The notes beneath the pieces are model-generated. The model was not told where the DNA came from. It did no database searches and saw only the letters and a program-made list of their open reading frames with translations. Positions 1,201 to 19,329 of a stretch of 45,231 nt of DNA are shown here, piece by piece. Within the stretch, counting starts at the first letter, position 1. Each line of letters starts with the position of its first letter. A program made the position numbers and the translations under genes. The DNA lies in NCBI GenBank assembly GCA_023667395.1, contig JAMPAC010000004.1, positions 76,432 through 121,662 on the forward strand, in the 5' to 3' direction. Source of the DNA: Blautia sp. (GTDB taxonomy: Bacteria; Bacillota; Clostridia; Lachnospirales; Lachnospiraceae).

Positions 1201-4200
1201 TCAATACCTCTCCAGCGAAAAGGAATACAGCACCCGCTCTTTCACCAGCTGCCCCGTCAGTTTCTGCAGGGCTTCCCGGTAATAGTCCATCTGGGTCTCA
1301 TAGCGATTCCACAGTTCCGCCATGGAACGGACGGAATCCGTCTTGTAATCCAGCAGTACCAGCCCGTCTTCCTCCACAAAGAACACGTCTATGATCCCCT
1401 GGATCAGGACAGTCTCCGTCCCGGGGAATTCCTGCCCCAGCCTGTCCGCGCTGATCCCCATTACAAAGGGCTGTTCCCGGAAAAGACCTCCCGCTCTGTG
1501 GGCGCGGTACATGCGTTGTCCTATTTCCGAAGACAGGAAACGCAATATCTTTTCTTTCCGCACCGCTTCAAAATATTCCCTGCTCAAACGGTTCTCTTCC
1601 ACCTGTTCCAACAGAAAATCATGCAGAATTGTCTTTCTGGCTTTCCCGGGCTCAGCCGCCATGATCACATCCAGGTCAAGGATCTCCATGACCCTGTGGT
1701 ACGCGTTGCCGCGCACAGTGCCGCTGACCTTCTCCTCCTCCCTGCGGAACAGGGGAATATAGGGCTGTATCTCCTTTTCCTCAAAGGTATGGAAAGCCTC
1801 CTCGTCCTTATCCGCCATGGCAGCGATCTTTAATTCGGATACGGTGGTCTTGGTGTAGAGACCGGACAGGTTTTCATACGCATATACGCTTCCCAGGCGC
1901 TGCTTCAATTTCATATATGCGTCATTTTCCAGCGCTGTCTCCTCCTGCTCCGTCTGTCCTGACTGCCCAGGCGGCTGCTCCTGCATCTGCCCTGACTGTT
2001 CCGCCGCTTCCGGCTGCCCAAACAGTTGCTCCTCCTGCATCTGACCTGACTGTTCCGCCTCTCCCGTCCTTCCGACCCGCTCCAGCTGCACCTTTTTCTC
2101 ATACAGGGACAACTGTTCCCTGAACGTATCCGCCGCCAGTTCTTCTTCTGTCCTGACCTGCACCTGAATGCCGGTTTTCGCCAGCACAGGCAGCAAAAAG
2201 TCCAGATAACTCCCCGCCTCCGCATAATCCAGGCAGGACAGTCTGTCCATCCCTGCGTCTTTCCACAGTTCCCACTGTTCCTGCGCGTTTTCCATGGCCG
2301 CTGTCAGAATCAGCTTCTCTTTCGCGCGGGTCAATGCCACATAAAGTACCCGCAATTCCTCCGCCAGGCTGTCCTCCCGCAGCTTCACGGAGAGCACAGC
2401 ACGGCGCAGCGTCCTGTTTTTGATCCGCCTTTCGGGATCCACATAATCCGTGGCAAGCCCCAGGTCCATATCGGCGATCATGGACTGGTTGGCGTCCTGC
2501 ATATTGAAACGCTTGCCGAGACCGGAGACGAAGGTTACAGGAAATTCCAGCCCCTTGCTCTTATGGATGCTCATGATCCGCACCACGTCGGCATTTTCAT
2601 CCAGCAGTTCCGCCTCCCCGTAATCCACGTCATATTTTTCCAGCTGCTCCATATAACGGATAAAATGAAACAGGCCGAAATAACTCGTCTTTTCAAAGTC
2701 CGACGCCTTGGTGAAAAGCATCTCCACATTGGCGCGCCGCTTGCTGCCTGCGGGCAGCGCCGTCACATAATTCAAATAGTCAAAATCAGTCACCAGACGG
2801 GTCAGCAGTTCCCGGATAGGCATATATGCTGTCATCTCGCGGTATGTATCCAGCATTTTCAGGAAATCCGCCGCTTTTCTGCGGAGCGCCGCCACATCCG
2901 TATCTCCTGTATCCGCCGATTCTCCCCCACATGCTTCTCTGTCGCCCGCGTCTCCTGCAAATATCACTTCGTCAGCTGTTTCCACATTGGTCATTCTTCC
3001 TGCAGGCATCTCCGCATCCGACGCCCTCCGACCAGATACCCCTGCCGATATCTGTTCATCCCCGCCCAACGCATATTCCCGCACAGCCTCATAAAGAGCA
3101 CATCCCTTTTTCCCGCCGCGCAGCTTCGCCAGTTCCTCCTCCGTAAAACCGCCGAACACGGATTTCATCACGCCGAACAGCGGGATATCCTGTGTGGGAT
3201 TATCCAGCACACGCAGGAATTGCAGCAGTTCCTGCACTTCCGTTGCGCCAAAATAACCGGTCTTGGAAGTAATGTAAACCGGTATGCCCTCCTCTTCCAG
3301 CACCTGTTTGAATTCCTCATCCCAGCCGCTGTTGGTGCGGAGCAGAATCACCATATCGGAATACCGCACAGGCCGCAGACAGCCGCTCTCCTTATCCGTC
3401 ACCTGAAAACCTGCCATCAGTCCCTTGATCTTACCTGCAATTGCCCTGGCCTCCGCCTGCTTCGCATTCTCCTCCGCATCATCGCCAGGCTTTTCCACCA
3501 GCAACAGTACACTTTCGTAATTTCCGCAGTCGTTCTCCTCCGGGTACACCGCCCCGGGATACAGCGCCGCCTTTTCGTCATACTCAATCCCACCGATTTC
3601 CCTGCTCATGATCCTGGAAAACACACTGTTGACCGTATCCACCACCTGGGTACGGCTCCGGAAATTCTTCGCCAGATCGATCCGGCGGCAATTTCCGCCT
3701 GCCTGACAAATGTCCTCTGCCAGACTTTCTTTCTCCCTCAGACACTCTTTCCCTGCCAGACGGTCTCCATCCTCAGATGCGTATGTATCATACTTTTCCA
3801 AGAAAAGCTCCGGCCTTGCCAGGCGGAACTTATAGATGCTCTGCTTCACATCCCCCACCATAAAGCGGTTAAACTGCCCCTCCTCCTCGCCGGAAACCGC
3901 TTTCAGCAGATACTCCTGCACCAGATTGCTATCCTGATACTCGTCGATCAGGATTTCCGCAAAATGCTGCCTGTACTCCAATGCCACGGCGCTGGGCAGA
4001 ATCTGTCCATCCTCTTTTTTCAGCAGGATCCTCAGGGCAAAATGCTCCATATCCGAAAAGTCGATGACTTTCCGCTCCTGCTTCTTCTCCCCCATCCGCC
4101 TGTCAAATTCCAGCACCAGATCCACCAGCGTCCCCACCGGCTCCATACAGGCATGTCCCTGCTTCACCGCCAGTTCCAGGGATGTGGCAAAAAAACGCTC

Positions 4201-5139
4201 CGCCAGCTTCTTCAGGCTGTCTTTTACCTCACCCCTGAGTTTCTTTGCCAGTTCCCGCTTCACAGGGGAAACGCCGGTGTCTTTCTTCGCAGACAGCCTG
4301 CCAAAGATGACTGCGGGCAGCCCCCTTTCATAATCGGACAGGGACTGGCAGGCGGCCAGCGCCTCCAACATCTCTGTCTCCTGCTCCACCAATTCCCCGT
4401 ACATATAAGGACCGTCCGGCTCCTCACACAGCTTTTTCACACGGTTTAATTTCTCGATGCACCCCTCCGTCATCCTCCCCAGATGCTTCAACAGGTATTG
4501 CCCGTAATCGCTGACGGAAACGCCCTCCACATCCTGGGCCTGATAATCTGCCTTTCTCGCCAGAAGCCATTCTTCCGGAAAAGGGAAACTGGCGGCATAC
4601 CTGGACAGACTCAAAATATGCTGCTCCAGCACTTTCTCCCTGCCTCCGGGACAGAAAAATTCCACACAGAATCGGAAGGTTTCTCCCCCCTCCCTGTAAT
4701 TGTCCTCCATCAGTTCCTGCAGAACCTCCTGCTGCATCAGCTTTATTTCACCCTCGTCCGCCACACGGAACGCCGGATCCAGTCCGATCTCATTGAAATG
4801 ATTCCGCAGCAGAAAGAGACAGAAGCTGTCAATGGTAGTGATCTGTGCGTTATGCAGCAGCGCCGCCTGCTTCTGGATGTGCTCCGACTCCGGCCTTTCC
4901 TCCAGCTTCGCGGCGATCCCCAGGGCGATACGCTCCCGCATTTCCGCCGCCGCCGCATTGGTAAAGGTAACGATCAGCAGCCTGTCAATATCCACAGGCC
5001 GCGCCTCGTCACAGACCATCTGGATGATACGCTCCACCAGCACCGCTGTCTTGCCGCTTCCCGCCGCTGCGGAGACAAGGATATTGCAGTTATGTAAATC
5101 TATGACCTTTTGTTGTTCCGGTGTAAATGAAATCGCCAT
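1201..5139 (-). CDS. addA: ATP-dependent helicase/nuclease subunit A (AddA)
   Basis: Helicase-nuclease subunit of AddAB, which resects double-strand breaks and loads recombinase, the Firmicutes counterpart of RecBCD. UvrD/Rep superfamily 1 motifs run in order: Walker A AAAGSGKT (K30), TFTNAAAAEMRERI, DEYQD near residue 398, GDVKQSIYKFR, SIHKSKGLEF and VALTRAKEK. A RecB-type nuclease motif, LLDYKTD, lies near residue 1263. I chose the ATG at 5139 (MAISFTPEQQ) because GAGGG sits 5 nt before it; the ATG at 5151 has no comparable site. At 1312 aa it is somewhat longer than usual, through two low-complexity insertions at about residues 693-746 and 1026-1070. It starts 32 bp after hsdM, and its partner addB lies 10 kb away beyond the restriction system. 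Confidence 0.97.
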   Translation of the reverse strand: MAISFTPEQQKVIDLHNCNILVSAAAGSGKTAVLVERIIQMVCDEARPVDIDRLLIVTFTNAAAAEMRERIALGIAAKLEERPESEHIQKQAALLHNAQITTIDSFCLFLLRNHFNEIGLDPAFRVADEGEIKLMQQEVLQELMEDNYREGGETFRFCVEFFCPGGREKVLEQHILSLSRYAASFPFPEEWLLARKADYQAQDVEGVSVSDYGQYLLKHLGRMTEGCIEKLNRVKKLCEEPDGPYMYGELVEQETEMLEALAACQSLSDYERGLPAVIFGRLSAKKDTGVSPVKRELAKKLRGEVKDSLKKLAERFFATSLELAVKQGHACMEPVGTLVDLVLEFDRRMGEKKQERKVIDFSDMEHFALRILLKKEDGQILPSAVALEYRQHFAEILIDEYQDSNLVQEYLLKAVSGEEEGQFNRFMVGDVKQSIYKFRLARPELFLEKYDTYASEDGDRLAGKECLREKESLAEDICQAGGNCRRIDLAKNFRSRTQVVDTVNSVFSRIMSREIGGIEYDEKAALYPGAVYPEENDCGNYESVLLLVEKPGDDAEENAKQAEARAIAGKIKGLMAGFQVTDKESGCLRPVRYSDMVILLRTNSGWDEEFKQVLEEEGIPVYITSKTGYFGATEVQELLQFLRVLDNPTQDIPLFGVMKSVFGGFTEEELAKLRGGKKGCALYEAVREYALGGDEQISAGVSGRRASDAEMPAGRMTNVETADEVIFAGDAGDREACGGESADTGDTDVAALRRKAADFLKMLDTYREMTAYMPIRELLTRLVTDFDYLNYVTALPAGSKRRANVEMLFTKASDFEKTSYFGLFHFIRYMEQLEKYDVDYGEAELLDENADVVRIMSIHKSKGLEFPVTFVSGLGKRFNMQDANQSMIADMDLGLATDYVDPERRIKNRTLRRAVLSVKLREDSLAEELRVLYVALTRAKEKLILTAAMENAQEQWELWKDAGMDRLSCLDYAEAGSYLDFLLPVLAKTGIQVQVRTEEELAADTFREQLSLYEKKVQLERVGRTGEAEQSGQMQEEQLFGQPEAAEQSGQMQEQPPGQSGQTEQEETALENDAYMKLKQRLGSVYAYENLSGLYTKTTVSELKIAAMADKDEEAFHTFEEKEIQPYIPLFRREEEKVSGTVRGNAYHRVMEILDLDVIMAAEPGKARKTILHDFLLEQVEENRLSREYFEAVRKEKILRFLSSEIGQRMYRAHRAGGLFREQPFVMGISADRLGQEFPGTETVLIQGIIDVFFVEEDGLVLLDYKTDSVRSMAELWNRYETQMDYYREALQKLTGQLVKERVLYSFSLERY

Positions 5140-5171
5140 GTTTTCCCTCATTCCATGCTCTTAGCCGTTAT

Positions 5172-6671
5172 TCATGCATTCTCATTTTTCAGCTGTCCCA
5201 TTAATTCCTGAAAACCCGCCAGCGCATTCTGCAGGTTCTCGATAATATCCCCTGCCAATTCATCCGCCGGTGGCAGATGATCCAGGTCGGCCAATGACTT
5301 ATCCTTGATCCAGAAAATGTCCAGGCTGGTCTTATCCCGTTCCAGGATTTCCTGAATGGAAAATTTCCTCCATCTTCCATCGGGATTGCTTTCCGAATAT
5401 GTTTCCGTGCGCTGATGGCGGTTCCCCGGATGATAGCAGGAAACAAAATCCTCCAGGTCGGCCTCCGTCATGGGATGCTGTTTCAGCGTAAAATGCACAT
5501 TAGTGCGAAAATCATATATCCATACCTCTTTCGTCCTGATATCCGGGCTGGCAGGACATTTGTCAAAAAAGATCACATTGGCCTTGACGCCCGGTTTATA
5601 AAAGATACCCGTGGGGAGCCGGAGAATCGTATGTAAATCTGTGGTTTCCAGCAGTTTCTTCCGTATGATCTCTCCGGCTCCGCCTTCAAACAACACATTA
5701 TCCGGCACAACCACAGCGGCCGCCCCGGTAGATTTTAAAATTGTGTTGATGTGCTGGACAAAATTCAGCTGCTTGTTAGAACTCGTGACCCAGAAATCCT
5801 GTCGGTTATATACAAGATCCTCATCCTCCTGTTCGCCTTCTTCATTCGTAAATGTGATGGAAGACTTCTTGCCAAACGGCGGATTGGTCAGTACATAATC
5901 ATACCGGATCCCCGGATCGGTCAGTAGCGAATCCCCCAACTCCACCGGAATTTCTCCGTAAATATCCCCGATATTGTGAAGATACAGATTCATCAGGCAC
6001 AGCTTAAACGTGGCTGCCACCAACTCGTTTCCATGAAAAGCGCCATTCTTCAGAAATGCCTTCTCCTCCCTGTCCAGTGTGTAATTCCCCGGATCGGTCA
6101 AATATTCCTGCGCAGCCAGCAAAAATCCCCCGCTGCCACAGCAGGGATCGCAGATTGTCCGCATCGGTTTGGGACGGATGCATCTCACCATGGCCTTGAT
6201 CAGGGGACGGGGCGTAAAGTACTGCCCTGCGCCGCTTTTCACGTCCTCCGCGTTTTTCTGCAGCAATCCCTCATAAATTTCACCTTTCACATCCGAGGAC
6301 ATGGACACCCACTTTTCTTTATCGATCATCTGAACAATGCGGAACAGGATCGCCGCATTGCCGACCTTGTTGGTTGCCCCCTTGAAAATTTTCCCCAGGA
6401 TTCCGCCCTGTTCCCCCAGTGTTTCCAGCGTAGCCCTGTATTGCTCCTCCAGTTCCGCGCCTTTCAGATCACGCATATCGCTCCAGCCATAGCCTGACGG
6501 GATGCCAGTCTCCCTCTGATAGGGCGGTCTTGCATATTCATCGGACATCTTCAAAAAGATCAGGTAGGTCAGCTGCTCCAGGTAGTCTCCGTAAGACACG
6601 CCGTCATCCCGCAGGGGTGCGCACAGTCCCCAGACTTTTGAGATGATCGTGGATGTGTTTTCGTTTATCAT
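5172..6671 (-). CDS. hsdM: Type I restriction-modification methyltransferase subunit HsdM
   Basis: N6-adenine methyltransferase subunit of a type I restriction-modification complex; with HsdS it protects host DNA. The SAM-binding motif DPCCGSGGF lies near residue 177 and the catalytic NPPFG near residue 262. The HsdM N-terminal helical domain precedes them (TSTIISKVWG, YLEQLTYLIFLKMSDE). The ATG at 6671 gives MINENTSTI, after a GGAAGG-rich stretch; the open frame extends 21 codons further upstream without family similarity. The length of 499 aa is normal. It is unusual that hsdM is last in the cluster, separated from hsdS by two other genes and followed directly by addA. All key methyltransferase residues are present, so it should be active. 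Confidence 0.96.
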   Translation of the reverse strand: MINENTSTIISKVWGLCAPLRDDGVSYGDYLEQLTYLIFLKMSDEYARPPYQRETGIPSGYGWSDMRDLKGAELEEQYRATLETLGEQGGILGKIFKGATNKVGNAAILFRIVQMIDKEKWVSMSSDVKGEIYEGLLQKNAEDVKSGAGQYFTPRPLIKAMVRCIRPKPMRTICDPCCGSGGFLLAAQEYLTDPGNYTLDREEKAFLKNGAFHGNELVAATFKLCLMNLYLHNIGDIYGEIPVELGDSLLTDPGIRYDYVLTNPPFGKKSSITFTNEEGEQEDEDLVYNRQDFWVTSSNKQLNFVQHINTILKSTGAAAVVVPDNVLFEGGAGEIIRKKLLETTDLHTILRLPTGIFYKPGVKANVIFFDKCPASPDIRTKEVWIYDFRTNVHFTLKQHPMTEADLEDFVSCYHPGNRHQRTETYSESNPDGRWRKFSIQEILERDKTSLDIFWIKDKSLADLDHLPPADELAGDIIENLQNALAGFQELMGQLKNENA

Positions 6672-6712
6672 GTGTTGTTTCCTTCCTGTAAAGGCTTTGT
6701 GCAGAGTTAACC

Positions 6713-6739
6713 AAGTCATAACCATTTTGGTCATGACTT
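6713..6739 (-). promoter_or_regulatory. 12-bp inverted repeat in the hsdM leader
   Basis: Arms at 6713-6724 and 6728-6739 match at 11 of 12 positions around a 3-nt loop. They lie between the stop of the AlbA/HATPase gene and the start of hsdM. No T-run follows on the minus strand, so this is not a standard terminator. It could be an operator or an mRNA processing/stabilising hairpin. The arm contains TTGGTCA, which recurs three times inside the upstream gene. Confidence 0.5.
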
Positions 6740-6754
6740 AATTTTAAGCTTTAG

Positions 6755-8128
6755 CTATGAATAATATTTTTGATTTTTACTTTTGGGCTTGTTGGGAATT
6801 GTCATTCTTAGTTGTCCCGCTTTAATCATTGGATTAAGATAATGCCTTCTGAAAAAACTTCGGTCACTTACCTTAATATGGTTCATGATTTCCTTGGCAG
6901 AATGCGGATCTTGGCAAAAAGCAATTATCATCTTGGTCACATCTTGGTCAGTATCTTGGTCATTTTGACCAAGATACAAATTACTCTCAGTATTCAATAA
7001 TTTTAAATACTTATCACACGCCTTACAGAGCACCATAATTCCTGATGCATTGATATCATATTCCGGCAAAGGCGCATCATATTGCGCACATGCTTCCCTG
7101 ATCTTTTCAAAGCCCCTTCCCCAAGCTTCAATCATTCCACTTTTAAAGAAAACGTCCGCCAATTTGGGATTATACGGTTTTGAAGAATGCTTCATAAACA
7201 ATTTATCTGTTGAATCTAAACCGGCTGGCATCTCGCCATCATTCCATATATACATTTTATCTTCATACACACTAATCTGGATAGGATTGCAGCTACTATA
7301 GTCTTTATGTACGATCGCATTTAGTAATATTTCACGGAATGCGTCCTGATGAAACATAAACTGCTCCATTCTCTGCACTCCGTCATAATCAATCAATGCT
7401 TTTAAATACTTCGTATAAACTAAACCAATCGTCCTGTCAACCTGTTCCATTAGTGAACCATGTATTTCATCCTGATATTTCAGGTCAGAATCAGAATCTC
7501 CAAAATAACCTATCTTGATGTAGGCGCCTGTAACCCACTTCTCCGGATCTTTATAAAATGCCAGCAACGCGGCTCTTATCAGATATCCATCTTCATTGAT
7601 TAAATGTAAATTTTCCATCAATATGACATCATCAACCCCTGTTTCTTCCTCTGCAAGTCTTCCCCTTTTTAAAGCTTTTTCTTTAAACAAATCAATTGCC
7701 TCTCTCTTCAAATCAGTTACTTTCAGTTTTGGAATCGGCATACCGTCCCATGTTCTGCCCTGTGATTTCAGGATCGCTTTGTCCAATTCTTTTCCAGTTA
7801 TCGTTCGCATTGTACTGCCGGAACGATAAAAATATTTGCCATGATAACTGATAAGAGAAGGATACTTGTCCACAACAATCTCAATGTATTGTATTTCGTT
7901 TTCATACAACAAATTGACATCTGCTACAATACCCATTGTATCCGTAATCTTATTGGGAATACTTTCCAATAATTTCTTTCTATCCTTATCGCTAAGTCCG
8001 ACAACATCTCCATAGTCATTCTTACCAATATAAAGCGTTCCGCCATAAGCATTGGCATATCCGCAAATCCACTCCAAGTACTCATCATGCCAAGATTCTT
8101 TCCATTCTATTGTTTGATGTTCCGGCAT
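6755..8128 (-). CDS. AlbA/Schlafen-type ATP-binding regulator embedded in the hsd cluster
   Basis: Probable COG2865-type protein with an AlbA_2 nucleic-acid-binding N-terminus (TIEWKESW, YANAYGGTLYIGKND), a HATPase_c_4 region with the E-x-x-L-N-x-x-x-H-K-D-Y motif near residue 274, and a C-terminal winged-helix segment (HSAKEIMNHIKVSDRSFFRRH). A short acidic repeat linker, NDQDTDQDVTK, precedes the winged helix. I chose the ATG at 8128 (MPEHQTIEW), which has AGGTG at suitable spacing; the open frame extends 62 codons upstream but overlaps the preceding gene and lacks similarity. It sits between the 286-aa unknown and hsdM. In family terms it could regulate the cluster; an effector role in defence is an alternative. 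No direct evidence separates the two. Confidence 0.85.
   Translation of the reverse strand: MPEHQTIEWKESWHDEYLEWICGYANAYGGTLYIGKNDYGDVVGLSDKDRKKLLESIPNKITDTMGIVADVNLLYENEIQYIEIVVDKYPSLISYHGKYFYRSGSTMRTITGKELDKAILKSQGRTWDGMPIPKLKVTDLKREAIDLFKEKALKRGRLAEEETGVDDVILMENLHLINEDGYLIRAALLAFYKDPEKWVTGAYIKIGYFGDSDSDLKYQDEIHGSLMEQVDRTIGLVYTKYLKALIDYDGVQRMEQFMFHQDAFREILLNAIVHKDYSSCNPIQISVYEDKMYIWNDGEMPAGLDSTDKLFMKHSSKPYNPKLADVFFKSGMIEAWGRGFEKIREACAQYDAPLPEYDINASGIMVLCKACDKYLKLLNTESNLYLGQNDQDTDQDVTKMIIAFCQDPHSAKEIMNHIKVSDRSFFRRHYLNPMIKAGQLRMTIPNKPKSKNQKYYS
6933..6972 (-). repeat. TTGGTCA repeats encoding an acidic DQD linker
   Basis: TTGGTCA occurs at 6933-6939, 6944-6950 and 6956-6962, with an inverted copy at 6966-6972. 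Read on the minus strand this encodes NDQDTDQDV, the linker between the ATP-binding region and the winged helix. Another TTGGTCA lies in the hairpin before hsdM. Confidence 0.7.
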
Positions 8129-8195
8129 ATTATTCACCTGCTTTCTACTCGCATTATATGCAATCATCTTCATAACATTTCGTTTATTCATTTTA

Positions 8196-9056
8196 TCACT
8201 GCTGATAAAGCGCGATAATTTCCAATTGATACACAGGTTTTCCATGAATAGCGGAAACCGCAACCGCTTCAAAGTCAAAAATATCTTGATCCGCAATCTT
8301 TTGTACAGCATCAATCAGTCCCTGCTTAGCCGCAGTATCCTTGATCTTTGTAAATATTGTATTTTTCATCAACTCGGTACCATTGGGAAAAACACGTTTT
8401 ACCTGTGCCAGGCATGTAAGTTCCGTGCCTATAAGGTCATACCTGACTGATTGATATAAATTGTCATCTGTTATATTTCCAATGACTGCATAATCATCTG
8501 TTTCATAAAACATTTCTTCTCCTCCAAAAAGGACTTGCATGGTTTTTAGAATACTATTTATATCATTATTACTTTTCCCAACCCCCTTCACGATTGCCCC
8601 TAATTTCTGCATATCTCCGGCCAGCTTAAGTAATTCTGCCATTTCCGTGAGTAATGATTTGATTGAATTAATAGACAGTAACACTGGCAGACACACGAAC
8701 TGTCCCGCCTTTGCACCTTTAATATCATGCAAATATCCCCTATCGGAAAGTATTGATTTCACAATACTAAGAACAGAAGTAACCGTTTGCACTTTTTTCT
8801 CTTTATTCTCATTTGCATGACTATCTACTTTCTCTGCACTGCCAGAAATGCTTCCACCAAAATCAAAAAGTTTGAATCCACCTTTTGCAGATAAGTCCGC
8901 CTTTCCGTCTTTTGTTTTTTCAACACTGATTGATGTCGTAATCTCTGCATATTCTGAATATCCGCCATTTAAAATAGCATATATATCTAATAGTCTTCCC
9001 TGATTGATATAATATGGGAAAAAAAGCTCCACATTCTTTTTCTCTTTGCCGTTCAT
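8196..9056 (-). CDS. Unknown 286-aa protein between hsdS and the AlbA regulator, DUF6414-like
   Basis: The function is not known. The N-terminus (FFPYYINQGRLLDIYAILN) resembles proteins I recall as the DUF6414 family, found near mobile and defence genes; this is a recollection, not a search result. A glycine/serine-rich stretch follows (about residues 55-75), then a lysine/glutamate-rich segment, a mostly helical middle and a C-terminal alpha/beta part. No signal peptide or clear membrane segment is seen, and no nuclease or ATPase motif was recognised. The ATG overlaps the hsdS stop as TAATG, with GGGAG inside the hsdS end, so translation is coupled to hsdS. The next gene starts 67 bp downstream. 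Its fixed place inside the hsd cluster suggests an accessory subunit or a regulator of restriction. Confidence 0.8.
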   Translation of the reverse strand: MNGKEKKNVELFFPYYINQGRLLDIYAILNGGYSEYAEITTSISVEKTKDGKADLSAKGGFKLFDFGGSISGSAEKVDSHANENKEKKVQTVTSVLSIVKSILSDRGYLHDIKGAKAGQFVCLPVLLSINSIKSLLTEMAELLKLAGDMQKLGAIVKGVGKSNNDINSILKTMQVLFGGEEMFYETDDYAVIGNITDDNLYQSVRYDLIGTELTCLAQVKRVFPNGTELMKNTIFTKIKDTAAKQGLIDAVQKIADQDIFDFEAVAVSAIHGKPVYQLEIIALYQQ

Positions 9057-10228
9057 TACAATAATCTCCCTTCAAATGCCTGTTTTAAAATACTTCGTCT
9101 CATGGCTTCCGCCTGCTGCAATGCGGTATCTACTGTCTGCTCGATGCGGTCACAGACAGACAGCCTGCTCTCAATCCGCGCAACCGTATTCATTGCAACC
9201 ACATCGCTTACAACAGGCACTGCGGTATCCCTGATATCATCAAGTCCGAGACCTAATTTGCCTCCACCACGCTTGTTTCGCAATAAATCTTTCTGTCCCC
9301 ATTCACTTTTAAGATACCATGCCATATATGTACCCTGATTTGTGTTCTTAAAGCGAATCATTGCAATATGTTGATTGATATATGCTTCTCCTACGGAATT
9401 CGGAACAAGCGCAATGCTCCCCAAATCTGCCGTGATTGAAACAAGCACATCATTTTTCATCAGTAAACTGCGTTTCCCCTCTGCAGTATATGGCAAATCC
9501 ACATATTGTATATTATCGTTTTTTAAACAGATCCTATCTCTTGTTAAATCTGTGATTCTAATGAAACGCGCTCCATGATCCGAATAGTATTTAGCCCATC
9601 CACGAGAACCACTGGTCACCAACAATGCCAATTCACGAATAGGACGTTTTTCTTCAATTTCTTCAAACGCTTCTTTCAGCACCGCCTGGCGGTATACTGT
9701 CAGTTGTACTTTTGTGACTTTCAGTGTTTCAACACTCTTGTCCAGTTTGGAAAACAATTCTTTAATGCGTTTAACAATGTTCTTCTGTTCCTCTGGTGAA
9801 GGACAGGGAACGGGAATTTTTTTCATAGCTGCCTGTGTCAGCTTTAATCGTGTCGTCCCCGAGACAAAGTCCTTGTAACTAAATACATTCAAATAATAAC
9901 AAAGAAATCTACTATTTATTTTTGCTCTCAATATATGAGCATGATTATTTACCCAACTTCTTCCCGAAATCAAATATGCTTTTTTTGCGAGAGCATCTAA
10001 AAATGGTGCTCCGTCCTCTCCCAACAAAACATACTCACCATCAATTATATATTCATCTATATATCCAACCTGTCCTGTCGCTCCATAGTATGGATATAAT
10101 TCTTCCCGCTTTTTCCCTTCAAGTCGTTTAGCTCGTTCTTTACCATTAACAGGTTTACGCTGATTATCACAAATTTCAGCAACATCTTCCAATGTTGCAA
10201 TAGGCCAGACGCTACTTTCAATCTTCAT
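9056..10228 (-). CDS. hsdS: Type I restriction-modification specificity subunit HsdS
   Basis: Target-recognition subunit that tells the HsdM/HsdR complex which bipartite sequence to methylate or cut. Two target-recognition domains are seen (about residues 1-155 and 205-345), each followed by a conserved helical spacer (PSPEEQKNIVKRIKELFSKL; the second around NTVARIESRLSVCDRI). The tail IEQTVDTALQQAEAMRRSIL and KQAFEGRLL is the classic HsdS C-terminus. I chose the ATG at 10228 (MKIESSVWP) because it starts 16 nt after the remains of a small upstream gene; its ribosome site is weak (GAGAAAG, far upstream). A longer frame to 10321 has no family similarity. At 390 aa the gene is complete. Confidence 0.93.
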   Translation of the reverse strand: MKIESSVWPIATLEDVAEICDNQRKPVNGKERAKRLEGKKREELYPYYGATGQVGYIDEYIIDGEYVLLGEDGAPFLDALAKKAYLISGRSWVNNHAHILRAKINSRFLCYYLNVFSYKDFVSGTTRLKLTQAAMKKIPVPCPSPEEQKNIVKRIKELFSKLDKSVETLKVTKVQLTVYRQAVLKEAFEEIEEKRPIRELALLVTSGSRGWAKYYSDHGARFIRITDLTRDRICLKNDNIQYVDLPYTAEGKRSLLMKNDVLVSITADLGSIALVPNSVGEAYINQHIAMIRFKNTNQGTYMAWYLKSEWGQKDLLRNKRGGGKLGLGLDDIRDTAVPVVSDVVAMNTVARIESRLSVCDRIEQTVDTALQQAEAMRRSILKQAFEGRLL

Positions 10229-10244
10229 GTATGTATACACTTTC

Positions 10245-10453
10245 TCAATCTTGTTTTGTTGCCTCTTTCCCAAAATCAACCATCCTCTTATAATATTCCT
10301 TCTGTTCCTCCGTTCACCCATTCCGATGTACCGCCATCGTTTTCAGTGCCTCAAACGCAGCGTCACGTTCCTCGCCGGAAACCGTGATCTTTCTGTCCCC
10401 ATTGCCATTGCAAATACCTTGGCAAGACCGATAAACTGACTAAATTCGTCCAT
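10245..10453 (-). pseudogene. Decayed small gene (about 70 codons) between hsdR and hsdS
   Basis: It starts with ATG at 10453, seven nucleotides after an AGGAGG directly behind the hsdR stop. The first frame (MDEFSQFIGLAKVFAMAMG) closes at 10343. Protein-like coding continues in another frame (KITVSGEERDAAFEALKTM) to a TGA at 10314, and beyond that TGA in the same frame (EEQKEYYKRMVDFGKEATK) to 10245. One frameshift plus one in-frame stop would explain the layout. The 36-residue first frame could still be made. No family was recognised; it looks like a former hsd-linked small protein. Confidence 0.55.
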
Positions 10454-10464
10454 ATCTTTCCTCC

Positions 10465-13206
10465 TTACGCCACCAATTCCACATTCATCTCATCCAAAAT
10501 TTCCTCATACCCCTCGCCAAACACCTCGTAGAACCGCCCAAGCCCGCCCTTATGGTCAAAGGGGCTTAACAGGTCATCCTTTTCAATACTGAGGGATGCC
10601 GCAATATGGTCTTTTACCAGACGCAGCCATTCCATCTGCTCCCCGGTAAAGTGTACCGCACCGGCATTCCGCCGGAGCGTCCATTGCATGAAGTTATAAT
10701 TTACCCGCTCCGCAAAGGGCTGCAGATGGTCTGCATACCCCATCTCAAAGCGGATCAGGGAAATCAGGTCTGTCAGCTGTGCCAGCGTGCCGCGTTTTAC
10801 CTTATCAGGACGCTTCACGGCATAACAATCCCATAACCGCTCCACGGTAACTCCCTTTGCTTTCAGCTTTTCATACAGTTCTTTCAGTCTGCCGATGGCC
10901 ATAGGACGGTTTTTATAGCTTTCATGATAAATGATCCTGAGAGTGATGATCTCGTCCCTGTTTTCTTCGATAAAGTCATGAAAAGTCTGTATGACGCGCT
11001 GCGCGTTCTCCTCCTGCTGGCTGTCATATCCGGCGAAAAGAACCTGGTCCAGATTTACATTATCCATGATCTGTTCATGACTGCGGCGCACATTTTCAAT
11101 ATATTCCCGCACCTCTGGTTGGCAAAACGGCTTTACCGCTTCTTCCGCCATTTTCCGGGATACATCCTGCAGCTGCTCCTGCGTCGGTTCATCCGTCTGA
11201 TATATTTGCCGTGCCTTATCACGGATCTCATCCTCATCGAAAGCGTCCAGCAGCCTTTCAGCCAGCTTCCCTGCAGACACGCCCGCTTTTTCTTCAAATT
11301 TCTTTCGTTCCGCCTGGTTCATCTGCGCATTTAACCGTATCAGACGATTGGCAAGGGACGTCAGCGTATCCTCGTCCCTGGCTCCCAGCGCGACTTTCAG
11401 CATCAGTTCTTTCATACTGACACCCGGTCTACGCTCCAGCGTTCGCGTCTCTGTTTTCTTTGATTTTGTCACTCCCACTGCGTCCACAATGACAAAATGG
11501 TCTTTATTTCCACTGGCGGATGGGGTCACCTTTTTCAGGTCCTCCACATCCAGCGTTCGCGTTCCGCGGCCTTTCATCTGTTCAAAATAATTTTTGCTTC
11601 TCACATCCCTCATGAAGATCAGGCACTCGATCGGTTTCACATCCGTCCCCGTGGCGATCATATCTACCGTGACCGCAATCCTTGGGTTATAGCCATTCCG
11701 AAAGGAACTTAATACATTTTCCGGATTTTCTGCGGCATAGGTCACTTTCTGGCAAAATGCATTTCCCATTCCGAATTCTTCCCGCACGATCTGGATAATA
11801 TCGTCCGCATGGCTGTCCGTTTTGGCAAAAATCAGGGTCTTGGGCACTTCCTCCCGATGCGGAAACAGCGTCATGTGCAGATTTTCCTTAAAAGTGCGGA
11901 TCACGGTACGGATCTGGCTGGGATTGACAATATCACGGTCCAGCTGACCCGGCTGGTAGTCTATGTCTTCGTCCAGCTGCGCCCAGCGCCTTGCCCTGGA
12001 CAACCGGTTGCGGTACTCCACCAGCTGACGCATCAGATACGCGCCATTCCTGGTGATCTGTGTCTCTATCAGGAAAATGTCCTCTCCCACATTGACCCCG
12101 TCAACCATGGCCTGTTCCCTGGTATACTCACTGACAACATTCTGATCAAAAAACGCCAGTGTACGCTTGTCCGGAGTGGCTGTCAGCCCGATCAGAAAGG
12201 CGTCAAAATACTCCAGCACCTGTTTCCAGACATTATAGATCGACCGATGGCATTCATCCACAATAATACAGTCAAAAAATTCCGGCGGATATTTTCTGTT
12301 ATAGACTACCTCTTTGGGCGGTTTCCCCGACTCTGATTCGCGATGTTCCGCAGACTCCATCTCTTCTTCTGTTTTTTCATCCAGTTCTTCTCCCCGGAGA
12401 ATCGAGTACATCCTCTGAATCGTACTGATGCAGATCTGTACATCATCGGGGATATAAGGACTTTTCAATCGTCTTACCCCATATATCCGGGAAAACGGCC
12501 TTGGATCCTCATTGGGAATATACGCCATAAACTCCCTCTCGGCCTGTTCCCCGAGAGTTTTGGTATCTACCAGGAACAGGATCCGATTCATCTTTCCGTA
12601 TCTTAGCATTCGATAAGCGGCCGTTATCGCTGTAAAGGTCTTGCCCGCGCCTGTTGCCATCTGTATCAGGGCTTTCGGTCGATTTTCAGCCAAAGAATGG
12701 TCCAGGTTCCTGATTGCCGTGACCTGGCATTTACGGAAGCCTGTTTCATCCAACGGCGGAAAATGTTTCATATGATTACGGATCGTATCCGATACTGATA
12801 ACTTTTTTTGCAATGTCTGTGGCTGGTGAAAACTGAATACATTTCGTGAACGATAATTGATATCGTCATAATCGGTAAATCTTACCAACTCACCTGTAGC
12901 TTCATAGGCAAAACGAATCCGGTACTCATAGTCGATCCATTGAAAAGTACTGTTCGCATAACGGGCAGACTGTGTTTCCACGGTTGTGATGTTTTCTCCG
13001 GCATCGCCTTTCTTAGCCTCAACTACGCCGACGGGCCTGCCCTCTATAAACAGTGCATAATCAACCGGGCCGGTACTTGTGGGAAACTCCCGCACCGCTA
13101 CGCCAGGAGACGCCATGGGATTCAACTGTCCTGCATCCTGAACGATCCAGCCGGATTCTTCTAATTTTCGGTCGATTATTTCTCTCGCTTTTTGTTCCGG
13201 GCCCAT
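10465..13206 (-). CDS. hsdR: Type I restriction enzyme, DNA translocase/endonuclease subunit HsdR
   Basis: Restriction subunit that translocates and cuts unmodified DNA using ATP. The PD-(D/E)XK nuclease is visible at D49, E63 and K65 (VVEAKKGD). Superfamily 2 helicase motifs follow: ATGAGKTFTA near residue 185, DECHRSIYNVW near 317, GLTATPDKRT, and QMKGRGTR late in the second RecA fold. A C-terminal helical region for complex assembly completes the 913 aa. I chose the ATG at 13206 (MGPEQKAREI), which has GGAGG at 7-nt spacing; the frame opens 8 codons earlier. It is the first gene of the minus-strand cluster and is divergent from the toxin-antitoxin pair at 13439. All catalytic residues are intact. 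Confidence 0.97.
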   Translation of the reverse strand: MGPEQKAREIIDRKLEESGWIVQDAGQLNPMASPGVAVREFPTSTGPVDYALFIEGRPVGVVEAKKGDAGENITTVETQSARYANSTFQWIDYEYRIRFAYEATGELVRFTDYDDINYRSRNVFSFHQPQTLQKKLSVSDTIRNHMKHFPPLDETGFRKCQVTAIRNLDHSLAENRPKALIQMATGAGKTFTAITAAYRMLRYGKMNRILFLVDTKTLGEQAEREFMAYIPNEDPRPFSRIYGVRRLKSPYIPDDVQICISTIQRMYSILRGEELDEKTEEEMESAEHRESESGKPPKEVVYNRKYPPEFFDCIIVDECHRSIYNVWKQVLEYFDAFLIGLTATPDKRTLAFFDQNVVSEYTREQAMVDGVNVGEDIFLIETQITRNGAYLMRQLVEYRNRLSRARRWAQLDEDIDYQPGQLDRDIVNPSQIRTVIRTFKENLHMTLFPHREEVPKTLIFAKTDSHADDIIQIVREEFGMGNAFCQKVTYAAENPENVLSSFRNGYNPRIAVTVDMIATGTDVKPIECLIFMRDVRSKNYFEQMKGRGTRTLDVEDLKKVTPSASGNKDHFVIVDAVGVTKSKKTETRTLERRPGVSMKELMLKVALGARDEDTLTSLANRLIRLNAQMNQAERKKFEEKAGVSAGKLAERLLDAFDEDEIRDKARQIYQTDEPTQEQLQDVSRKMAEEAVKPFCQPEVREYIENVRRSHEQIMDNVNLDQVLFAGYDSQQEENAQRVIQTFHDFIEENRDEIITLRIIYHESYKNRPMAIGRLKELYEKLKAKGVTVERLWDCYAVKRPDKVKRGTLAQLTDLISLIRFEMGYADHLQPFAERVNYNFMQWTLRRNAGAVHFTGEQMEWLRLVKDHIAASLSIEKDDLLSPFDHKGGLGRFYEVFGEGYEEILDEMNVELVA

Positions 13207-13415: not shown

Positions 13416-13438
13416 AAATAGTGAGAGGAGGTATCATT

Positions 13439-13732
13439 ATGGCACAGGCAACCTTTAGTATCCGAATGGATGAGTCCTTGAAGCGGCAATTTGATGCCCT
13501 TTGTGCGGACTTCGGAATGAATGCTACCACCGCATTCAATATATTCGCGCGGGCTGTAGTTCGGGAAAAGAAAATCCCGTTTGAAATCCATGCTTCTGAT
13601 GAAATTACCAGAGCCTCCGGCATGCAGGCGTTCCTTGCGCTACGGGATGAGGCAAAGAAAAATGGTATTCAAGATCTGACCTTAGATGAAATCAATGAAG
13701 AAATCCGACAAGCACGGTACGGAGGTGAATAA
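13439..13732 (+). CDS. RelB/DinJ-family antitoxin
   Basis: Antitoxin of a type II module; it binds DNA through a ribbon-helix-helix N-terminus and neutralises the adjacent toxin with its C-terminus. The N-terminal TFSIRMDESLKRQFDALC and GMNATTAFNIFARAVV are characteristic of RelB/DinJ proteins. The ATG at 13439 has GGAGG at 7-nt spacing; the ATG at 13421 does not. The C-terminus is charged and probably disordered when free. The stop codon is immediately followed by the toxin ATG, so the pair is coupled. The gene is divergent from hsdR. Confidence 0.92.
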   Translation: MAQATFSIRMDESLKRQFDALCADFGMNATTAFNIFARAVVREKKIPFEIHASDEITRASGMQAFLALRDEAKKNGIQDLTLDEINEEIRQARYGGE

Positions 13733-14149
13733 ATGACCTGTTATGCAGTAATCGACACGAATGTCCTGGTCTCTGCATTGCTTTCAAGCCATAATGATAC
13801 GGCTACTGTTCTTGTTGTCGGAAAACTATTTTCCGGTGAGGTCATCCCACTCTTCAATAATGCTATTCTGAAAGAGTATTATGAAGTGCTGCAACGTACA
13901 AAATTCCACTTTTCAAAAAAAGTTGTCAGCATACTTCTTCAGACCATTGAAAAGTATGGTGAACGAGTTGTTCCCTCGTCCACCGGAGAGTTACTGCCGG
14001 ACATGAAAGACTTACCATTTTATGAAGTTGTCCTCGAAAAACAGACAGATAATGTATATCCGGTTACCGGAAACATGAAACACTTTCCACTGAAACCATT
14101 CATTGTCACGGCAAAAGAGTTTCTGGACATTCTAAACACAGCTAAATAG
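13733..14149 (+). CDS. PIN-domain toxin
   Basis: Putative endoribonuclease toxin of the PIN family that pairs with the antitoxin before it. D8 (VIDTNVLVSALLS), E48 (ILKEYYEVLQR) and D90/D93 give the acidic metal-binding cluster. The fourth position is VTGNMKHFP, with asparagine at 114 where many PIN proteins have aspartate. This variant is common in the PIN subfamily of toxin components, so I do not take it as loss of function. Its ribosome site, GGAGGTG, lies inside the antitoxin's last codons, giving zero intergenic spacing. The length of 138 aa is normal. Confidence 0.9.
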   Translation: MTCYAVIDTNVLVSALLSSHNDTATVLVVGKLFSGEVIPLFNNAILKEYYEVLQRTKFHFSKKVVSILLQTIEKYGERVVPSSTGELLPDMKDLPFYEVVLEKQTDNVYPVTGNMKHFPLKPFIVTAKEFLDILNTAK

Positions 14150-15262: not shown

Positions 15263-18200
15263 CTATGCTTTCTCATCAATGCCTTCCGTTTCTTCCGCCA
15301 TCCTCATAAAAACCTCCGCCCAGTTCAGGTCTTCCAGCTTCCGCTTGCTGCATCCAGGCATGCTGCTCTCGAATCCGCAGACTTTCCGGTAAGCGCAGTA
15401 GGTACAGGCCTCCTCCGCTCCCCGCTCATAGGGATTTAAAGAAATCTTCCCCTGCAGGATCTCCCTGCCGATCTCCGCGATCTTCCTGCTCACATAGTCG
15501 GAGACCAGCTTCAGTTCCACATCGCTCATCACGGAAGACCTGGCGGAAAAGCTGCCGTCCTTTTTCCTCTCCACCGGGATCACATCCGATTTCTCCACCA
15601 TGTATTTGTCCAGCCGCTCTATGATGTCCGGGGAAGCGTTCACAACCCCGTTCATGCGAAGCTGCTTTGTCAGCTGTTCCTCCAGTTCTTCCGGCGTCAA
15701 TTCCACCGGCGTCTCCACGGAAGGATCCTCAATATGATAGTACAGCAACGCCGCCGGAACCGCCTCCTTGCCGGGATGTTTCTTCCCCTCCAGTTCCAGC
15801 GCCGTATTCATGTAAACCACCAATTGCAGCTGCAGCCCATAGTACAACGCCGCCAGGTCAAACCGCGTATTCCCGGATTTATAATCAATCACTTTGACGT
15901 AAACATATTCCTCATCCTCCGACACATCGATGCGGTCGATGCGCCCCTGCAGATGCATCCGCTCCTGCTCGGAGAGCGCGATATTCACGCTGTCCAAATG
16001 ATCCGCGTACTGGAAAGAAAGTTCGTAGGCGTCCGGTGCAAAGCTGCCTTTTTTCAGCTGTTTCTGCAGCGTCAGCACCGTCCGGGTCAGGATCCGTCCC
16101 ATGCGGGTGATGGCGTATTCATTCCGGGCGCTGCTGTAGAGCACCGTGTCCCCATAGGTGGCGGCATAGGCTTCCAGCGCCTCCCGCACTGTCCGGGCGC
16201 CGAATTCCTCCGGAAAATCGAACCAGGTATAACCATTCTCCGCCAATTTTGCGGCAAAGGTCTCCAGAACCGCATGATACACATTTCCCATGTCCACATT
16301 TTCAAAAGAAAACTCCTGCCGCTCCTTTAAGGTAAGTCCATACTGCAAAAAATGGCGGTACGCACAGGCGGCATAGGTCTCCAGGCGGGTAACGCTGTTT
16401 TCCAGGTATTTTCCGTAAAGCGCCCTTGCCACCGCCGCCGACAGTCCCGTATCCTGATACCGCCGGAACGCGGCGTCCGTCAATGCGCTCCTTTTCCCCG
16501 CCAGCTTTTCCTCCCCGTAAACACGGTACAGGGTGAAAAACTCCTGGGTTTTTTCCCGGGACAATGTTCCCGACACATACTCCCGCAGCCCCTCCGCCAG
16601 GTAGCCCGCTCCCTCCGCCGGGGTGACGATCTGCTCCAGCATGGGGCGAAGCTGGGGATATTCCGTGGGAATCCCCGGGAACAGCTTTTTCACCGTGTCG
16701 ATGAGATAGGCGGGGCGCAGGGATTTACCGGAACTGTTGACCTTGGACCAGGACAGGAAAAGCCGCTCGGAGGGCTTGGTCATATTCAGGTACAGATAGA
16801 GCCGCTGGATATACATCTGCTGCCTGGGGCTGGGAGCCAGTTCCAATTCCGACTCCCGCAGAAACTCCCTGTCCATATCGGAAATGATCCCGCCCCTGGA
16901 GGCATTCTTGGGAATATTGCCGTCATTGACCCCCAGGAAAAACAGCGCCTTTACCTGCTTTAAGCGGGTGCGTTCCATATCCCCCGCTACCACCCTGTCC
17001 ACGTTCTGGGGGATGGTGCCCACCTGGATCTCGCCGAAGCCTGCCTCCAGGATCTCCCTAAACTCCGCCAGGGGGATGGTCTCCTCCCCCAGCAGTTCGT
17101 AGATCTGATCCAGCAGTTCCATGACCAGCCGATAGATCTGGGCATATTCCCGTGCCCTTGAGGGCTGCCCCTGTTCCTCAAACTGCCGCTCATAGGCGAC
17201 CAGCTTATTCTGCACCTCATTCCGCACCAGGAAATCGTAAAGCCCGTCAATATAATCCCTGACCCTGCCCTCCTTTTTCCTCACAAGGGGGGAAAGCTGT
17301 TCCATCATCTGTTCCCGCAGATGGTTGATGCGCGCCAGGGCTTCCTCGTCCTGTTCCATCTTTTCCGTCTTACGGGTAAAAAGGCGGCTGTAACTGCGGT
17401 ATCCCCGGAGACCCGTGCGGATCGCATAATTTTCCAGTTCGTCGATTTCCGCCCGCTCCAGGTCGGCCATTCCGCTCCTCAGATAATGGAACACCGCTTC
17501 ATAGGTAAAATCTTTTTCAAACAGTTCCAGCGCGCTCTTGATGTACTCGATCATGGGATTTAGCGCGATCCCCCTGGTGCGGTCGATAAAGCAGGGAATC
17601 TCCATCTGGGCAAACTCCGTCTCCACATAGGGGGCGTAACCCTCCAGATCCCCCATGATCACCGCGATATCCCGGTAGGCAAGCCCCTGCTCCCTGATCA
17701 GTTCCTTGATCTTCAACCCGGTCTGGTGCACCTCATCCCTGGGCGTGGTGGTCTCAAAAAGGCTGATCTCCGACTGCTGCCCCTGGTAAACCTGAAAAGG
17801 ATAGCGGAATAGATTTTTTTCCAGATGCCCCAGCGCGGGAGACGTTTCAAAACGGTAATGGGTTCCGATAAACACGTCTTTCTCCCTGGGCACGCCCGCC
17901 TCCTTTGCCAGTCTGTCCAGATCCGCCACCGTCTTTTTGCTCAGATAAAACAGCTTCTGTTCCCCATCCTTTACATAGGGGTCCTCTCCCTGTCCCAGGG
18001 TGACGGTCAGGATCACCTCGCCGCAGACCTGCATCAGTTCCTGGATCAGCTGGTTCTGGATCGGCGTAAAACCGGTGAATCCGTCAAACACCACCACGCT
18101 TTCAGGCAGCAGCTTTGATTTATGCAGGGAGCGGCGCAGTACGTCCAGGGTCTCCTCGGTGGTGATGAAATTGCCCTCGATATACTCCATAAAGCCCTTA

Positions 18201-18688
18201 TATAAAGTTTCCAGATCCTTTAATTTCCCCGCCAGCGCGCCGCGCTTTCCCGCGTAAGCGATCAGCTTTGACACATCCTCCGTGCCGATGCCGTACTGCA
18301 TGAATTCCGAGATGGCGCTCTTTACCTCATGGATATAGCCCTGCCTGTGCAGAAAGCTGCCCAACACGGGAAGTTCCTCTTTCAGGTTCGCCGCCACTTT
18401 CTGGAGCACCAGGCTTTTCCCCGTGTCGTCCAGCACCGGTATCTCCGCCCTGCCCACCTCTTCCATAATGCGGTGGTTCAGCCTGCCGAAGCTGAGCACG
18501 TCTATATTCATAATGCCGCCCCGGTCGTTCAGGAGCACCAGTTCCTTCTGGGTCTGCATGGTAAACTGGTCGGGCACCACGATCAGGAAATTCCGCCTGG
18601 GATTTTCCCTTGCCCGCTTTGTGACCTCGCTGTAAATCTGCCTGCTCTTTCCGGATCCTGACGATCCGAATATGAATTGTAAACTCAT
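15263..18688 (-). CDS. addB: ATP-dependent nuclease subunit B (AddB)
   Basis: Second subunit of the AddAB helicase-nuclease, with an inactive-helicase-like N-terminus and a RecB-type nuclease C-terminus. Walker A GSSGSGKS is at the very start. The nuclease motif VIDYKSG lies in the last quarter. The iron-sulfur staple cysteines are present: one in the segment TYAACAYRHFLQYG and three in CTYCAYRKVC close to the end. I chose the ATG at 18688 (MSLQFIFGS), which has GGAG at 9-nt spacing and overlaps the glycosylase stop as ATGA; the frame extends 57 codons upstream inside that gene. At 1141 aa it is full length. addB normally sits next to addA; here about 10 kb separates them. Confidence 0.97.
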   Translation of the reverse strand: MSLQFIFGSSGSGKSRQIYSEVTKRARENPRRNFLIVVPDQFTMQTQKELVLLNDRGGIMNIDVLSFGRLNHRIMEEVGRAEIPVLDDTGKSLVLQKVAANLKEELPVLGSFLHRQGYIHEVKSAISEFMQYGIGTEDVSKLIAYAGKRGALAGKLKDLETLYKGFMEYIEGNFITTEETLDVLRRSLHKSKLLPESVVVFDGFTGFTPIQNQLIQELMQVCGEVILTVTLGQGEDPYVKDGEQKLFYLSKKTVADLDRLAKEAGVPREKDVFIGTHYRFETSPALGHLEKNLFRYPFQVYQGQQSEISLFETTTPRDEVHQTGLKIKELIREQGLAYRDIAVIMGDLEGYAPYVETEFAQMEIPCFIDRTRGIALNPMIEYIKSALELFEKDFTYEAVFHYLRSGMADLERAEIDELENYAIRTGLRGYRSYSRLFTRKTEKMEQDEEALARINHLREQMMEQLSPLVRKKEGRVRDYIDGLYDFLVRNEVQNKLVAYERQFEEQGQPSRAREYAQIYRLVMELLDQIYELLGEETIPLAEFREILEAGFGEIQVGTIPQNVDRVVAGDMERTRLKQVKALFFLGVNDGNIPKNASRGGIISDMDREFLRESELELAPSPRQQMYIQRLYLYLNMTKPSERLFLSWSKVNSSGKSLRPAYLIDTVKKLFPGIPTEYPQLRPMLEQIVTPAEGAGYLAEGLREYVSGTLSREKTQEFFTLYRVYGEEKLAGKRSALTDAAFRRYQDTGLSAAVARALYGKYLENSVTRLETYAACAYRHFLQYGLTLKERQEFSFENVDMGNVYHAVLETFAAKLAENGYTWFDFPEEFGARTVREALEAYAATYGDTVLYSSARNEYAITRMGRILTRTVLTLQKQLKKGSFAPDAYELSFQYADHLDSVNIALSEQERMHLQGRIDRIDVSEDEEYVYVKVIDYKSGNTRFDLAALYYGLQLQLVVYMNTALELEGKKHPGKEAVPAALLYYHIEDPSVETPVELTPEELEEQLTKQLRMNGVVNASPDIIERLDKYMVEKSDVIPVERKKDGSFSARSSVMSDVELKLVSDYVSRKIAEIGREILQGKISLNPYERGAEEACTYCAYRKVCGFESSMPGCSKRKLEDLNWAEVFMRMAEETEGIDEKA

Positions 18689-19329
18689 AAATAAAATCTC
18701 CAAAGATAGTCCGCGGCTTCCTCCGCATAGTCGATGCCGATCCGTTTTCCCGCATGAATCTGCGCAGGCTCCACCCGGATTCCCTCCGTCACATAGAAGC
18801 CGTGGCTTTCCACCATGTCCACATCGTTGTCCGCCGCAGTAATATGCATGGCGATGCACAGCTTTCCCGGGCCGTCCGCCAGGTGCTTATCCAGGGAAGC
18901 GGGATACCGCTCCATGGTATAGGGTTCCCTGTCTCTCTTCCTCTGCTTCCGGTTCAACTCCTCCAGCCGCAGCTGCCGCATGATGCATCGGGACGCTTCA
19001 TCCGCAGGAATGACGCTCCGAAGCAGCACCGCCTGGGGATTCCCCTCCGTCATGGCGGCGATATTCATGCAGCTGTACATGCCATAGATGAGATAGACGT
19101 AGGAGGTTCCGCCCTGATGGTACATGGGCTCCGTCCTTGCGGTACGCCTGCCGCCGTAGCTGTGGGCGCCTTTGTCCGTCTCGCCCATGTAACTCTCCAC
19201 CTCCGTCAGGATACCCCGCACCGTCCCCAGGGGTGTCTCATGAACCAATGTCTTTCCCAGCAGTTCTTTCGCCACCGTGATCCCGTCCCTTGTGAAAAAG
19301 GCTCTTTCAAGGCGTTTTTTGTCCGGCAT
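18685..19329 (-). CDS. DNA-3-methyladenine glycosylase (AAG/MPG family)
   Basis: Base-excision repair enzyme that removes alkylated purines such as 3-methyladenine. The family signature ELLGKTLVHETPLG, the catalytic glutamate in TEVESYMG, and DKGAHSYGGRRTART followed by YVYLIYGMYSCMNI are all present. At 214 aa it is a normal length. The start at 19329 has AGGAGG at 6-nt spacing. Its stop overlaps the addB start (ATGA), which couples alkylation repair to break repair. It begins 18 bp after the PIN toxin stub, so it may share the promoter at 19802-19830. Confidence 0.95.
   Translation of the reverse strand: MPDKKRLERAFFTRDGITVAKELLGKTLVHETPLGTVRGILTEVESYMGETDKGAHSYGGRRTARTEPMYHQGGTSYVYLIYGMYSCMNIAAMTEGNPQAVLLRSVIPADEASRCIMRQLRLEELNRKQRKRDREPYTMERYPASLDKHLADGPGKLCIAMHITAADNDVDMVESHGFYVTEGIRVEPAQIHAGKRIGIDYAEEAADYLWRFYL

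Follow-up and report, generated by a model that had tools for sequence, protein, structure and literature searches.

The window analysed here is a 45,231-nucleotide stretch of a Blautia sp. genome (NCBI GenBank assembly GCA_023667395.1, contig JAMPAC010000004.1, positions 76,432 to 121,662), and our subject is a type I restriction-modification operon in it that carries two further genes between hsdS and hsdM, one for a protein of the uncharacterised DUF6414 family and one for a Schlafen-type protein. On the minus strand, from 13206 to 5172, the listing of open reading frames (ORFs) gives hsdR, hsdS, the DUF6414 gene, a Schlafen (AlbA_2)-HATPase-winged helix-turn-helix (wHTH) gene and hsdM, all co-oriented; together with Pfam, it confirms the ORF set and order described in a first-pass annotation made from the DNA letters. 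The first gene, hsdR (10465..13206), encodes the restriction subunit, with Pfam matches to ResIII (2e-37) and EcoEI_R_C (3.5e-36) and a PADLOC match to REase_I; HsdR proteins of related loci are 70-76% identical to it. The specificity subunit, hsdS (9056..10228), matches Methylase_S in two stretches (5e-26) and has a C-terminal tail conserved across loci, and hsdM (5172..6671) encodes the adenine methyltransferase subunit (N6_Mtase, 4e-67; HsdM_N; PADLOC MTase_I, 3e-184). With hsdR, hsdM and hsdS all present and open throughout, the operon looks like a complete and apparently intact type I locus.

The DUF6414 gene (8196..9056) encodes 286 amino acids (aa), of which residues 14-284 match the family (Pfam ID PF19952, 8.3e-27). 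The hsdS stop and the DUF6414 start share one base of a TAATG at 9058-9054, an overlap that had already been reported and is indeed present, and which suggests translational coupling of the DUF6414 gene to hsdS. The Schlafen gene (6755..8128, 457 aa) matches SLFN_AlbA_2 (Pfam ID PF04326, 3.6e-12), HATPase_c_4 (Pfam ID PF13749, 4.6e-19) and Fic-like_C (Pfam ID PF21247, 8.5e-16). By reading of the sequence, the more likely starts are 10228 (MKIESS...) for hsdS, 6671 for hsdM and 8128 for the Schlafen gene, the last with its own ribosome-binding site. The small ORF described earlier after hsdR can be taken as the 36-codon ORF at 10343..10453 in the hsdR-hsdS gap, also on the minus strand; it is probably a remnant rather than a gene, because in a three-frame translation of the gap its coding-like continuation falls in another frame. 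A promoter and terminator scan found no terminator-like site on the minus strand from hsdS to hsdM, the sole minus-strand one lying inside hsdM; the totals were 10 terminator-like sites against 7.1 in the shuffled control, and 17 promoter-like sites, which is the shuffled level (mean 17.0).

A genome scan with the DUF6414 protein alone as the query, blind to hsd genes, yielded four relatives of 60-64% identity (L067 to L070). Two of them, in a Lachnoclostridium metagenome-assembled genome (L068) and in Colidextribacter sp. OB.20 (L069), occupy the hsdS-hsdM gap at a distance of 2 bases from hsdS, so that DUF6414 homologues do recur in hsd loci, in line with the first-pass annotation. Compared with the window, HsdR of these two loci is 72-76% and HsdM 82% identical, the hsdM of L069 having been placed by tblastn and ORF listing after the longest-ORF script missed it; the Schlafen protein of the window has no match in either stretch. 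In L070, the DUF6414 gene follows, at 38 bases, a short ORF that matches HsdR N-termini over its final ~23 residues (48% identity with HsdR of L076; blastp 7e-5 against 12 HsdR proteins), and the other hsd genes have no match in the remainder of that stretch, which is probably a decayed hsd locus. In L067, DUF6414 is near an HNH gene and a gene that fuses a C5-methylase with an NgoFVII endonuclease. All five close copies, including that of the window, are open, and they form a single branch with 100/100 support in the tree. Their synonymous differences are near saturation (pS 0.70-0.86) with few amino-acid changes (pN 0.11-0.30), and because five open homologues show this pattern, the conservation is more than chance would leave; the DUF6414 gene is under purifying selection.

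DolA of the Dodola system belongs to the same Pfam family. PF19952 scores over the cut-off in 26 of 397 genomes of the same bacterial family, and a DolB-type AAA+ gene comes next in 12 of the 29 regions fetched around such matches (one region, L064, stops at a contig end). By sequence, these 12 are Dodola-type pairs; the one pair tested (L055) matches the PADLOC models of DolA (7e-73) and DolB (5e-118). The upstream neighbours tested at Dodola-type loci are an MmeI-type enzyme (L055), BrxL (L039) and IetAS (L060). In the tree, a branch with 100/100 support sets the 12 DolB-linked proteins apart, with the window clade outside them, the rows of L116, L061, L062 and L056 being long and unsure in their placement. 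The window protein does not match the PADLOC DolA model at E up to 1, and the position after it holds the Schlafen-HATPase gene instead of DolB. Membership in Dodola was rejected for these reasons: no DolB, no match to the DolA model and a separate 100/100 branch. Because, in addition, the profile similarity to DolA is partial, we class the window protein on sequence grounds as a DolA relative, and its gene as a DolA-related accessory gene, but not as a Dodola member. The mechanism of Dodola is listed as unknown in the available part of PMC12322248, and DUF6414 was not named in the literature searched. The only PADLOC model that the window protein matches at E up to 1 is that of the candidate system PDC-M37, component PDC-M37A (4.4e-4, residues 10-123); a DolB protein matches PDC-M37B, but the window match is weak and N-terminal only, and PDC-M37B is not among the matches listed for the five operon proteins (the best 25 for HsdM and HsdS). 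The whole genome G000 holds 7 Methylase_S and 8 AlbA_2 matches in all, but a single DUF6414 match.

Some DUF6414 genes without DolB are found beside restriction genes of several kinds. The neighbour scan covered 13 of 14 chosen loci and 68 of 75 listed proteins (six proteins of L063 and one long protein of L048 were left out), and within the best 25 of 85 matched families, read without control neighbourhoods, restriction genes stand no more than three genes from DUF6414 in 5 of the 13 loci; of the two GmrSD_N matches, and likewise of the two C5-methylase matches, one could be assigned to a position. The neighbours are a XamI endonuclease and an Eco57I-type methylase in L038, a D12 methylase and an AlwI endonuclease in L048, hsdR and hsdS pieces and DUF3800 in L056, and a GmrSD relative three genes downstream in L049. 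The fifth, L061 (9170-12915), has a C5 methylase, an Eco47II endonuclease, Abi_alpha and DUF6414 in succession. Beyond these five, L045 (7060-11524) has an RloA-like AAA ATPase, RloB, DUF6414 and an HNH gene consecutively, and a RhuM gene is found in the vicinity in L044 and L051. Finally, a contig of the viral collection (L116, HsdM 59% identical) has a DUF6414 match upstream of hsdR, at 25.6 bits against a cut-off of 25, and a Schlafen-HATPase gene, not adjacent to it, in its hsdS-hsdM gap.

The Schlafen protein was aligned with 8 homologues. E3 and K10 are invariant and E8 is present in 8 of the 9 proteins, residues that may correspond to the Schlafen catalytic ones, and N270, H274, D276 and Y277 of the HATPase part are invariant in all nine. 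Taking PF21247 to be a winged helix, the protein combines AlbA_2, a histidine-kinase-type ATPase and a C-terminal winged helix. Its PDB sequence matches are weak, to 3lmm_A (2e-4, HATPase part) and 4rgl_A (1.5e-3, C-terminal part). A plasmid search with the gene matched 17 records, and 4 of the 7 neighbourhoods read are type I clusters, in Deinococcus (hsdR not in the stretch), Arcobacter, Aliarcobacter and Synechococcus; the remaining three are not, one of them having hsd genes ~3 kb off on the other strand. Among the genomes, L093 has an AlbA_2 gene directly after hsdS, and L094 an AlbA_2-HATPase gene ahead of hsdM. Together with the gap of L116, these cases show AlbA genes to be recurrent in hsd loci. 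The most similar copy encountered, present as two ORFs (89% and 75% identical), is located downstream of another hsdM-hsdS pair, in G370.

As far as the accessible text of PMC12839542 goes, proteins composed of a Schlafen RNase, a histidine kinase and a wHTH are described as back-up effectors of BREX loci. They share the three-part architecture of the window protein and are likewise linked to a restriction-like core, whereas the window gene sits in a type I operon and is likened to them by architecture. On this analogy, the Schlafen gene is a probable back-up effector. A PrrC- or RloC-like anticodon nuclease guard was considered and rejected, neither insert having an ABC-ATPase or anticodon-nuclease Pfam match.

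The gap between hsdS and hsdM is a variable cargo slot. HsdM-related loci were gathered at high HsdM similarity from 397, 392 and 391 genomes, from plasmids and from viral contigs, with longest-ORF calls by script in unannotated loci. Thirty loci have hsdS before hsdM, 17 with intervening genes and 13 without. The first-pass annotation had regarded the gene order as unusual; as loci of this HsdM lineage usually have hsdS ahead of hsdM, also where nothing intervenes, the order itself was dropped as an oddity. Among the loci found through HsdM, 15 of 28 have an occupied slot, a count that includes the window and omits L068 and L069, both of which came from the DUF6414 query. It further excludes the duplicates L114 and L117 and seven loci with another order, a broken hsdM or no hsdS called (L077, L078, L079, L080, L085, L105 and L109), draws on 4 of 10 plasmid matches, and counts L083 and L111, where hsdR is not in the stretch, and both L106 and L107, which look alike. 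Clustering of the 21 slot proteins by blastp (1e-3) gives 13 groups, comprising DUF6414, Schlafen-HATPase (L116), PtuA/PtuB of Septu, GmrSD (L084), DUF5677 (L076), small membrane-type proteins, unknowns and a possible HEPN protein (weak match, 0.036); in L072 the slot is empty. Regardless of the slot content, the HsdS ends resemble one another across the 11 loci compared, and so do the HsdM starts.

The Septu pair PtuA-PtuB lies between hsdS and hsdM in L112 (6439-8996; PADLOC E 0 and 5e-108) and, by similarity, in L113 (6519-9001). Another slot family, ~200 aa with a hydrophobic N-terminus and 35-43% identity, recurs in L074, L082 and L100. The hsdR-hsdS gap has a family of its own, with a hydrophobic N-terminal stretch and 33-51% identity (L068 7042-7830, L069 7063-7839, L082 6768-7556 and L098 9079-9858), for which the L068 protein gave no Pfam match over the cut-off.

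Genes embedded in this way have published parallels. The consulted portions of PMC5183652 and PMC2928727 describe intervening ORFs in the hsd loci of Campylobacter jejuni, termed mlo between hsdS and hsdM and rlo between hsdR and hsdS. The window, with non-hsd ORFs on the same strand between hsdS and hsdM, conforms to the mlo type; the bacteria are others, and the likeness is one of gene position. Defence genes inside type I operons are likewise on record, namely TgvAB of Vibrio cholerae VPI-2, DarTG2 of enteropathogenic Escherichia coli (EPEC) and PrrC of EcoprrI (PMC11411939, PMC12255303 and PMC12707154, each as far as its text was available), although these are GmrSD-like, DarTG or anticodon nuclease genes, against DUF6414 and Schlafen in the window. 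PrrC and PARIS are named guardians of restriction in the available portion of a recent review (PMC12707154). Genes intervening at the hsdS-hsdM position are thus already published as a kind, and the suggestion of an undescribed one, made in the first-pass annotation, is not borne out.

We favour the reading, with a probability of roughly 0.55, that two independent back-up defence genes are embedded in the hsdS-hsdM cargo slot of a type I operon, the DUF6414 gene being coupled to hsdS. The slot would then hold two independently acquired genes. DUF6414 would most likely serve as a second line, coming into action once restriction is blocked or overwhelmed and limiting the infected cell. The Schlafen gene would most likely encode a regulated RNase, in which AlbA_2 cleaves RNA and the HATPase and winged helix serve as sensor or control. 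The idea of a second-line effector, also raised in the first pass, would survive in the back-up role published for Schlafen-kinase-wHTH proteins (PMC12839542, in its available part), though not as one two-gene unit. Because the DUF6414 branch adjoins several restriction enzyme types and DolA is a defence component, its product probably comes into play on the failure of restriction. What the sequences show directly is the set and order of the genes, the overlap, the recurrence, the purifying selection on DUF6414 and the variability of the slot; a defence role for both inserts, their action after restriction has failed, the RNase activity and the mechanism of DUF6414 are inferred.

Several observations weigh against this reading. 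Two of the five close DUF6414 homologues (L067 and L070) have no intact hsd operon in the stretch examined, DUF6414 occupies the slot of the window only among the 28 loci found through HsdM, and among the 26 genomes with DUF6414 over the cut-off, hsdS is near DUF6414 only in that of the window and in G009. At the thresholds used, DUF6414 relatives were not found in plasmids, phages or viral contigs with the protein or the clade alignment as the query, and a PDB search with the DUF6414 profile gave no sequence relative. With hhalign, the profile match to DolA is a partial one, at 90% over 179 columns with the window clade and at 85% over 89 N-terminal columns with the wider branch. Of the 13 non-DolB loci, the remaining 8 had no restriction gene placed among the best 25 of 85 families, and the company of DUF6414 with restriction genes, seen without control neighbourhoods, is suggestive rather than a statistic.

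A wider version of the favoured reading, which we put forward tentatively, is that DUF6414 outside Dodola forms a general, portable guard family, with one fold serving type I, type II (XamI, AlwI, Eco47II and NgoFVII) and RloAB systems, giving a back-up response when the partner enzyme is inhibited. DolA-DolB would then be a branch with an added AAA+ motor, and the window copy would be wired in through its coupling to hsdS.

That the DUF6414 protein instead serves this HsdRMS enzyme as its own accessory subunit or regulator, in restriction control or assembly for instance, and not a separate arm, seems unlikely. It would account for the position between hsdS and hsdM, with hsdS overlapped or only 2 bases away in each of the three loci of this kind (the window, L068 and L069), and for the missing DolB partner, but close HsdM and HsdR relatives do without DUF6414, the slot being empty in L072 and filled by unrelated genes elsewhere; L067 and L070 keep close homologues without an intact hsd operon, and some members of the wider branch accompany type II systems. 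Less probable again, the inserts would be passengers of a mobile hsd operon, the Schlafen-type protein an ordinary transcription regulator and DUF6414 without a defence role. AlbA_2-wHTH proteins are often annotated as regulators, some plasmid homologues lie away from restriction-modification genes, and the operon looks inserted next to addA (see below); on the other side, DUF6414 is conserved over five genomes with restriction genes repeatedly nearby, Septu and GmrSD use the same slot, and the Schlafen architecture has its published reading (PMC12839542, in part). The proposal of the first-pass annotation, one unit with a DUF6414 effector and an AlbA/HATPase sensor, is improbable and was rejected as the principal explanation: the inserts are adjacent in the window, both occur at L116 and next to the Dodola locus L037 there is a 44-residue stretch that matches the HATPase part, but in L116 the two are non-adjacent (the only hsd locus with both besides the window, and one whose DUF6414 barely passes the cut-off), L068 and L069 have DUF6414 without Schlafen, the DUF6414 hidden Markov model labelled nothing around the Schlafen gene of the four plasmid type I clusters (6 kb on each side, or to the record end), and across the 26 genomes PF04326 is within 10 kb of PF19952 in the window only.

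Phages block restriction enzymes, and bacteria hold back-up genes for the failure of restriction. If the favoured reading of back-up genes in the slot is true in its wider form, a DUF6414 family that is portable and adjoins several restriction enzymes unrelated to each other would make up a new class of guard open to testing, and would hint at the function of DolA, the Dodola mechanism being listed as unknown (PMC12322248, available part). In practice, the variable hsdS-hsdM slot is also worth searching for unrecognised defence genes.

The genomic setting points to insertion of the operon. It separates addA (1201-5151 of the window) from addB (15263-18859), which are usual neighbours in the genus. 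We surveyed 39 genus genomes with addA and fetched 30 loci, of which 28 were usable, two being at contig ends; the end of addB is no more than 311 bases from addA in 23 of the 28, and the window is one of the five that are interrupted. In the closest relative (AddA 88% identical), addA and addB are separated by an aldo/keto reductase gene, a small ORF and a flavodoxin-like one, named by sequence reading, and none of the hsd genes of the window has a match there. Because hsd genes are absent from this position in the closest relative and addA and addB usually adjoin in the genus, the hsd operon looks inserted beside addA. The end of hsdM is 21 bases ahead of the addA ORF, and addA may therefore now be read from the hsd operon. 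Just upstream of hsdR, on the plus strand at 13421-14149, lies a pair of genes for a RelB-type antitoxin and a PIN_3 protein.

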